Positions 42,026 to 43,578 of a stretch of 47,814 nucleotides of DNA are shown piece after piece. The stretch spans positions 1 to 47,814 of the forward strand of contig JAAYCY010000011.1 in assembly GCA_012729535.1 (NCBI GenBank), in the 5' to 3' direction. Made by a program: the position numbers and the translations under genes. The stretch comes from Methanomicrobiales archaeon. Its GTDB lineage: Archaea > Halobacteriota > Methanomicrobia > Methanomicrobiales > Methanospirillaceae. How positions within the stretch are numbered: position 1 is the stretch's first letter; each line of letters opens with the position of its first letter. Below the pieces are notes generated by a model that had not been told where the DNA came from, did no database searches, and was given only the letters and a program-made list of their open reading frames with translations.

Positions 42026-43369
42026 ATGAAAAAAGAAAACCGTGTATTAATCCTTCGAGATGTCCTGATACCCGGAGGAAGAATTGCTGATATCACAATT
42101 ATCAATGGGAGGGTGAGTCATACCGGCTCTGCAGGAAAAGAGGGCTTTGAGATACATTGCAGAGGGAAAATGGTTCTTCCTGCAGGAGTTGACATGCATG
42201 TCCATATGAGAGATGGTGCCCAGAAATATAAGGAAACCTGGGAAACTGGAACAAAAAGTGCAATTGCAGGAGGAGTCACCTTTGTTGTCGACCAACCCAA
42301 TTCTATCCCTCCTCTTACCACCGGTGAAACCTTTAAGACCAGGTTACATCTAGCCCAATCAAGTTCATATTGCAGGTTTGCCCTGAATGGTGCTATAACA
42401 CCGCAATCCGATCTTGAAGGTTTGTGGAAAGCAGGATCCTGTGTATTTGGTGAAACGTTTGTTGGACCATCAAGTTATGGTGAAGCTGTTGATTCAGATA
42501 CCCTATCCCAGGCGATGAGCCGTATATCTGAATGGAATGGACTCATGACAATTCATGCCGAACAGGTATCATCTGGAAAAGATGAAAGTCTTGTAGATCA
42601 TAATTCAATCCGCTCTATAGCAGGAGAAATTGCTACAATCAGGGATGTAATTCACAAAAATAAATCACAATGCAGGCTGCATTTCTGTCATCTTTCATCT
42701 GCTGCTGCTATTAATACCATTCCAAAAGACAAAGTAACAATTGAAGTAACCCCTCATCATCTTTTTCTCTCACATGAACAATTCAAAGCTGACGACACTC
42801 ACGGGAAAGTAAACCCTCCACTCCGGACTGAAAGAGAAAGAAAAGAACTTTTTTCCTGTTGGAATAAAATCGATGTTATCGCATCTGACCATGCTCCCCA
42901 TAGTATACAGGATAAAGATAAACCATTTGAAGAGGCGCCATCCGGAATCCCTGGGGTTGAAACAATGATACCTCTCCTTATGTACTGTGAAAGAGAGAAA
43001 AAAATAACAATACCTGAAATTATCAAAAAAACATCGATTAATCCTTCTCGGATACTGGGTAGTCTTCCACCAGGTTATACTCCCGGTTCAAGAGCGGATT
43101 TTGCTCTTTATCCTGATGAAATCACCCAGGTTGATCCAGATGAACTCCATAGTAATGCAAAGTGGAGTCCATTTGAAGGGATGAATGCGATATTTCCAGA
43201 ATGTGTAATTCTGGATGGAAACATCGTTTACCAGGAAAATGCTTTTACGAAATCCGAGAAAATAAGGCCTGTTACTCAAGGAGGATATAATGAGTTCCAG
43301 TCAGAGAGTGATAGTTCACTCTGGTTTGCAGGGAGAGGTTATTGCCTTGCAGATACTATAGGTAAGTAG
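42026..43369 (+). CDS. pyrC: Dihydroorotase
   Basis: PyrC closes carbamoyl-aspartate to dihydroorotate in pyrimidine synthesis. The metal-binding HxH is in GVDMHVHMRDG (near residue 58), the later His in FCHLSSA and HPH-type region, and the catalytic Asp in ASDHAPHS. The usual carboxylated-lysine position of class I enzymes is replaced here by an EQV/ETF-type segment, as in some class I relatives. At 447 residues it is complete, though the final 20 residues extend past the usual end and run to the edge of the structured RNA that follows. Confidence 0.9.
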   Translation: MKKENRVLILRDVLIPGGRIADITIINGRVSHTGSAGKEGFEIHCRGKMVLPAGVDMHVHMRDGAQKYKETWETGTKSAIAGGVTFVVDQPNSIPPLTTGETFKTRLHLAQSSSYCRFALNGAITPQSDLEGLWKAGSCVFGETFVGPSSYGEAVDSDTLSQAMSRISEWNGLMTIHAEQVSSGKDESLVDHNSIRSIAGEIATIRDVIHKNKSQCRLHFCHLSSAAAINTIPKDKVTIEVTPHHLFLSHEQFKADDTHGKVNPPLRTERERKELFSCWNKIDVIASDHAPHSIQDKDKPFEEAPSGIPGVETMIPLLMYCEREKKITIPEIIKKTSINPSRILGSLPPGYTPGSRADFALYPDEITQVDPDELHSNAKWSPFEGMNAIFPECVILDGNIVYQENAFTKSEKIRPVTQGGYNEFQSESDSSLWFAGRGYCLADTIGK

Positions 43370-43370
43370 T

Positions 43371-43464
43371 GCCCATTCCTCGTTTCCATAGGTCCCCGGG
43401 TGATACGATGAGGAATCATAGAGTGATCCATGGGACAACCCGGAAACGGTACATTTTCGGGCAC
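43371..43464 (+). ncRNA. Structured 5' portion of the pyrC-downstream RNA (second kink-turn hairpin)
   Basis: The block is much richer in G and C than its surroundings. GTCCC (43392-43396) pairs with GGGAC (43432-43436); above a 2x2 loop GG pairs with CC, then U-U (43401/43427) and tandem G-A pairs (43402-43403 with 43425-43426) form a kink-turn with a bulge on the 3' strand. A weak apical stem closes the loop GAGGA. ATTCCTC (43375-43381) is complementary to that loop and flank (43410-43416), so an alternative fold exists. CCCG/CGGG (43439-43442 with 43458-43461) makes a third small hairpin. Whether this part is its own guide unit is unclear. Confidence 0.35.
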
Positions 43465-43541
43465 CGCCTGGCTGAGGGCGTTTAATAGGTGAAGTACGGC
43501 AAAAGCCACTTGTGATCCATATTTGTTAGTGCCAGGCGACA
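43465..43541 (+). ncRNA. Box H/ACA-type guide RNA hairpin
   Basis: The lower stem CGCCTGGC (43465-43472) pairs perfectly with GCCAGGCG (43531-43538) and is followed at once by ACA (43539-43541). Above it is a pocket of 11 bases (43473-43483) and 7 bases (43524-43530). The upper stem has AATA/TATT and GG/CC with one bulged A. Then comes a kink-turn: U90-U16, tandem G-A (43491-43492 with 43514-43515) and the three-base bulge TGT (43511-43513). The top is AGT/ACT and GGC/GCC around an AAAA loop. The pocket-to-ACA distance is 15 bases, inside the 14-16 rule for pseudouridylation guides. L7Ae should bind the kink-turn. Confidence 0.65.
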
Positions 43542-43578
43542 ACCATTCTTTACATAATGTTGTAGGGAAATTTTTTTT
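43539..43578 (+). terminator. Intrinsic-type terminator after the structured RNA
   Basis: ACAAC-c-ATT (43539-43547) pairs with AATGTTGT (43556-43563) and eight T follow at 43571-43578. This fixes the plus strand as the transcribed one and gives a likely 3' end before processing. Confidence 0.6.

Follow-up and report, generated by a model that had tools for sequence, protein, structure and literature searches.

Box H/ACA guide RNAs of the HgcG/Pab40/Pf7 type (Rfam model RF00064) have three hairpins in Pyrococcus, and experimental evidence for the guide comes from Thermococcales, Archaeoglobus and Haloferax (PMC2584109, PMC4652768, PMC6138745). In Haloferax volcanii, HP1 has been proposed as the guide for the 23S pseudouridine 2621 (E. 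coli 2586) and HP2 as that for pseudouridines 1956 and 1958 (1915 and 1917), with alternative pairings of the haloarchaeal HP2 also described (PMC2584109); these assignments were subsequently reviewed, and U1915 is given as the site of the orthologous hairpins Pa40.3, Af4.3 and Hvo2 (PMC4652768).

A related RNA is found in a 47,814 nt stretch of DNA (the window) from a Methanomicrobiales archaeon. It is about 173 nt in length, is located between pyrC and yggU at positions 43369–43541 of the forward strand, and is very likely a two-hairpin box H/ACA guide of archaeal type, the orthologue of HgcG/Pab40/Pf7 hairpins II and III and of the haloarchaeal HP1+HP2. A preliminary description had reported a single box H/ACA hairpin at 43465–43541. 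Geometry, covariation, conservation throughout the order and homology to HgcG/Pab40 uphold the class assignment, but the reported segment is only the second half of the RNA, hairpin 1 (43380–43453) having been missed.

Structure and conservation in Methanomicrobiales

Hairpin 1 has a lower stem formed by 43380–43387 and 43442–43449, in which seven of the eight pairs show two-sided changes, and it ends with an ACA box (43451–43453) that is invariant in all 37 sequences compared. The 5′ side of its pocket, AUAGGUC (43388–43394), is near-invariant and includes GGUC, the proposed 5′ guide for 23S GACC (2588–2591) according to the target scan. Invariant columns and pair counts define the upper stem and kink-turn (43392–43436), with GUCCC/GGGAC, GG/CC, and U-U and G-A pairs at 43401–43403 and 43425–43427. 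The 3′ guide AACCC (43437–43441), the same in 37/37 sequences, is complementary to 23S GGGUU (2581–2585).

In hairpin 2, CGCCUGGC (43465–43472) and GCCAGGCG (43531–43538) form a perfect 8-bp lower stem, followed directly by the ACA box (43539–43541), which is invariant and marks the 3′ end of the conserved region. All cells of this stem are paired in 33 sequences, and four of the eight pairs show two-sided changes. The upper stem and kink-turn (43484–43523) contain GA at 43491–43492 and 43514–43515 and the bulge UGU at 43511–43513. On the two sides of the pocket are the putative 5′ guide GAGGG (43474–43478), directed at 23S UGACCCUC, and the 3′ guide GUUAGU (43525–43530), of which GUU is invariant and GUUA pairs with UAAC (1911–1914); most relatives have GGGU and then U or A as the 5′ guide. 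Thus the perfect stem with its adjoining ACA, the two-sided pocket, and the kink-turn with U-U pair, tandem G-A and three-base bulge had been correctly described. The distance from pocket to ACA, which had been put at 15 bases, is 14 when measured from the top of the pocket.

An outer helix, P0, encloses hairpin 1 and its ACA by pairing GUGCCC (43369–43374), which includes the final base of the pyrC stop codon, with GGGCAC (43459–43464). It is seen in the fold of the whole RNA and in the alignment. Covariation in P0 is weak, with one clearly compensated case (CCGUC/GGCGG, locus L034) and otherwise GUGCC/GGCAC or variants of it across the 37 sequences.

Geometry is strictly maintained. In both hairpins and in 37/37 sequences the lower stem is followed by the ACA box, and exactly 14 nt separate the upper stem, or pocket top, from ACA, within the range of about 14–16 nt expected of archaeal box H/ACA guides. 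Hairpin 1 keeps the pattern GGGAC-AACCC, nine nucleotides, ACA throughout, and hairpin 2 keeps the kink-turn GA, nine nucleotides and GUU, with 14 nt to ACA. Tandem GA pairs with a U-U pair are present in the kink-turns of both hairpins, to which hairpin 2 adds the 3-nt bulge; hairpin 1 has a less regular C-stem.

When 43366–43560 was compared at the nucleotide level with 40 relatives, matches at E ≤ 1 were obtained in 38 of 41 genomes, the genome of the window included. Strong matches begin at about 43369 and mostly end at or near the ACA at 43541. All 36 relatives aligned in detail, which belong to the order Methanomicrobiales and with the window give the 37 sequences counted here, retain both hairpins, and the gene context is shared wherever it is readable. 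In addition to Methanospirillum, a pattern scan points to Methanoregula, Methanolinea, Methanoculleus, Methanocalculus, Methanofollis and Methanogenium as carriers, the genera being inferred.

The preliminary description had made its assignment depend in part on compensatory changes in relatives, and these are present in both hairpins. In hairpin 1, 89.6% of cells are paired and 10 of 19 pairs have two-sided changes; the covariation score is 0.272 compared with 0.148 for shuffled alignments, none of 500 shuffles reaches the observed value, and sliding gives at most 0.11. The corresponding figures for hairpin 2 are 94.4% and 12 of 19 pairs, with a score of 0.308 against 0.147 and again no shuffle of 500 reaching it. 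The GUCCC/GGGAC stem of hairpin 1 does not vary, so covariation speaks neither for nor against it; this constancy agrees with GGUC serving as a guide. Taken on these comparative grounds, the H/ACA guide RNA is real and almost certainly functional.

One genome of the order (G025, locus L038, about 2051–2490) has approximately 220 nt between hairpins 1 and 2, and a T run after hairpin 1 gives the impression that this hairpin is transcribed separately there. Because of this separation, each hairpin counts as an independent unit.

Predicted targets in 23S rRNA

Neither 16S nor 23S rRNA was found in the 97%-complete draft assembly to which the window belongs, and targets were therefore scanned in genomes of the same genus and order. 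The scan covered about 909 uridines in the rRNAs of ten Methanomicrobiales genomes, three of them from the same genus, each with its own guides. The E. coli numbering of sites is our own assignment, which we take from A2602 and the helix 69 pseudouridines.

For hairpin 1 the best site is 23S U2586, with a score of −207 summed over the ten genomes versus −106 for the next site, a twofold lead. In the sequence CUGGGUU-UA-GACC, pairing involves 7 bp with AACCCGG and 4 bp with GGUC. By its position relative to A2602 the uridine corresponds to E. coli U2586, or 2621 in Haloarcula and Haloferax, and it lies in the peptidyl-transferase centre. U2586 is very probably the target of hairpin 1 and is the better supported of the two targets. 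It should be pointed out that the model assigns the invariant GUC of hairpin 1 to two pairings, that of the upper stem (GUC/GAC) and that with the target, so the stem must open before the target can pair. A further site, 23S U2610 (GGU-UA-CUAUC), ranks third among all uridines; the pocket AUAG could pair there with CUAU, together with ACC. U2610 could be a second site of hairpin 1, and this might explain the invariant UAG.

With hairpin 2, a first, loosely anchored scan produced no clear winner. When the 3′ guide is anchored, the best site is helix 69 of 23S rRNA, GGGUAAC-UA-UGACCCUC, with U1915 at −102 versus −91 for the next site over ten genomes; this is a small lead, and the assignment depends on this second scan, adopted once the first had failed to single out a site, and on its match to the site published for the orthologue. 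Hairpin 2 probably directs modification of U1915, with U1917 as a possible additional or alternative site. In Methanospirillum the 5′ duplex GAGGG/CCCUC sits 3 nt from the target dinucleotide of U1915, and a shifted pairing, UAGU/ACUA plus GAGGG/CCCUC, would select U1917. Both target sites, U2586 and helix 69, are identical in 10/10 genomes.

Thus, rRNA sites able to pair with the pockets, on which the preliminary description had also made its claim depend, are found, with U2586 strong and U1915 ranking first by a modest margin. The target that it had proposed, 5′-ACUAACA-UN-AAACGCC-3′, does not survive. In the 16S and 23S rRNAs of three same-genus genomes AAACGCC is absent, and ACUAACA has a single occurrence, close to the end of one 23S locus. 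In place of the 5′ guide GGCGUUU assumed there, GAGGG is more likely.

Gene context, proposed mechanism and other readings

The RNA is flanked by pyrC (dihydroorotase) on the 5′ side and yggU on the 3′ side, with dnaG beyond. Where readable, the position of the pyrC stop ranges from 21 nt upstream of the RNA to 23 nt inside it, with one genome at 57 nt upstream; the yggU start, where found, is 5–36 nt after ACA, the window being an exception with 159 nt. In the window (at 43369) and at loci L025, L033, L023, L027, L029 and L038, the pyrC reading frame reaches up to or into the RNA. In six genomes the stop is inside the RNA, and in five or six of these it coincides with the UAG of the hairpin 1 pocket. 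Stop codons inside the RNA and the close packing with pyrC and yggU suggest co-transcription with pyrC followed by excision. A run of eight T residues (43571–43578) is a possible transcription terminator and may end the transcript in the window; it is unconserved in the order.

The genome encodes proteins with which such a guide would function: Cbf5 (327 bits), Nop10 (71.5 bits), two L7Ae-family proteins (86.3 and 61.2 bits), and a weak match to Gar1 (25.1 bits, below the curated cut-off of 29.3). The RNA is probably made with the pyrC mRNA and then cut out, and would assemble with Cbf5, Nop10, Gar1 and L7Ae, with L7Ae bound to each kink-turn and Cbf5 bound to the ACA boxes. Hairpin 1 would then pair with CUGGGUU-U-A-GACC and bring U2586 into the active site, where it would be converted to pseudouridine, and hairpin 2 would pair with UAAC-U-A-UGACCCUC of helix 69 and bring in U1915, possibly also U1917. 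A more speculative proposal, to which we give limited credence, is that the Methanomicrobiales guide is an intercistronic element released from a pyrC-yggU-dnaG mRNA, which lost hairpin I, gained P0 for excision or for holding the hairpins, and in which GUC alternates between the upper stem and the rRNA target.

In archaea, L7Ae can act on kink-turns in mRNAs as a regulator, and across the order the RNA fills the gap between the pyrC stop and the yggU start, often ending within a few dozen nucleotides of yggU. It might then be a cis-acting element of the pyrC-yggU operon, i.e. a 3′ UTR stabiliser, a leader or an L7Ae-binding switch of yggU, and not a trans-acting guide. This is very improbable, as the 14-nt ACA geometry of both hairpins has no reason in a kink-turn switch, the guides fit known rRNA sites, the upstream gene is a different one at haloarchaeal-type loci, and the RNA is homologous to HgcG. 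Even less credible, to the point of being negligible, is the idea that the hairpin is fortuitous or that the stretch codes for protein. This would agree with the folding energy of hairpin 2 alone, which is unremarkable (z −1.5), but it is refuted by the compensatory changes, the invariant spacing and the order-wide conservation; moreover, pyrC ends before or at the RNA in most genomes, and indels in the loops are not multiples of three. The whole 178 nt give z −2.5, and the opposite strand, at z −0.3, offers no support for a fold there. Folding energy by itself is insufficient, and it is the comparative data that are decisive for the H/ACA assignment.

There is somewhat more room, though still little, for an H/ACA RNA whose hairpin 2 has a different main target, elsewhere in rRNA or in a tRNA or mRNA. 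The score of U1915 is barely above those of the next sites, and the 5′ guide of hairpin 2 varies between genera. Against this, U1915 comes first in the sum over ten genomes, many other lineages have GAGGGUUA or GAGGGUAA as 5′ guide, GAGGGUUA pairing over 8 nt with UGACCCUC, and the same uridine is the site of the orthologous hairpin (PMC4652768). Helix 69 is thus retained here as the probable target of hairpin 2.

Relation to HgcG/Pab40 and other archaeal guides

Two covariance models, R1 for hairpin 1 and R2 for hairpin 2, were built from Methanomicrobiales sequences only. Among 295 genomes drawn from the phylum, R1 matches 131 and R2 matches 88, and in many genomes the two matches adjoin in the same order. 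RF00064, with a gathering cut-off of 77 bits, gives no match to the window, and in 41 close genomes it produces two weak matches at this locus (23.4 and 19.3 bits). Three loci that match both R1 and R2 score 98.4, 89.9 and 88.9 bits with RF00064 (L142, L133 and L135, respectively), and other loci remain below 77. The HgcG-positive locus L142/L276 has yggU (DUF167) directly downstream, as in the window, and at L209, an archaeoglobal locus, a gene for dihydroorotase lies upstream, also as in the window. Because loci found with R1 and R2 also exceed the RF00064 cut-off, and because these neighbours are shared, the RNA is best read, via the intermediate sequences, as the Methanomicrobiales form of HgcG hairpins II and III.

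Neither the window nor the order-wide alignment contains hairpin I, and the RNA begins at the pyrC stop codon. An RF00064 match in genome G040 that resembles hairpin I is attributed to chance; the stretch looks protein-coding and its fold is unlike that of hairpin I. In several other lineages (loci L130–L135, L137 and L142–L144), the sequence 5′ of hairpin 1 has ACA or a comparable triplet at its end and is consistent with HgcG hairpin I. The hairpin 1 pattern is also seen outside the order, at L148, L249, L244 and L156, in Thalassarchaeaceae/Marine Group II and in one Thermoplasmata genome.

The H/ACA RNA of the window is an unannotated member of a known family, and its peculiarities are the lack of hairpin I, helix P0, and the tight packing between two protein genes. 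It extends the guide to a whole methanogen order that is missed by the Rfam model, predicts pseudouridines at 23S 2586 and 1915/1917 in Methanomicrobiales, and is an example of a guide for ribosome modification that sits tightly between protein-coding genes. R1 and R2 would allow its annotation across the phylum.

With HgcG/Pab40/Pf7 the RNA shares the GGUCCCC and GGGUAACCC pocket edges of hairpins II and III, the GUUA 3′ guide, the ACA boxes and the order of hairpins; it differs in that hairpin I is missing, P0 encloses hairpin 1 as an additional helix, and RF00064 fails to detect it. In Archaeoglobus fulgidus, Af4.3 (directed to L1970; PMC4652768) corresponds to hairpin 2 by its published site, and archaeoglobal loci match the models; Af4 however has three hairpin motifs, and the published site of its second motif is L2601. 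A further likeness is to H. volcanii HP1+HP2 (Hvo1/Hvo2; PMC2584109, PMC4652768), which likewise has two hairpins with identical order and targets, and tandem loci of the haloarchaeal type are recovered by R1 and R2. HP1 and HP2 are set apart by a long spacer, whereas the hairpins of the window are adjacent, as they are in the order with the exception of the G025 locus.
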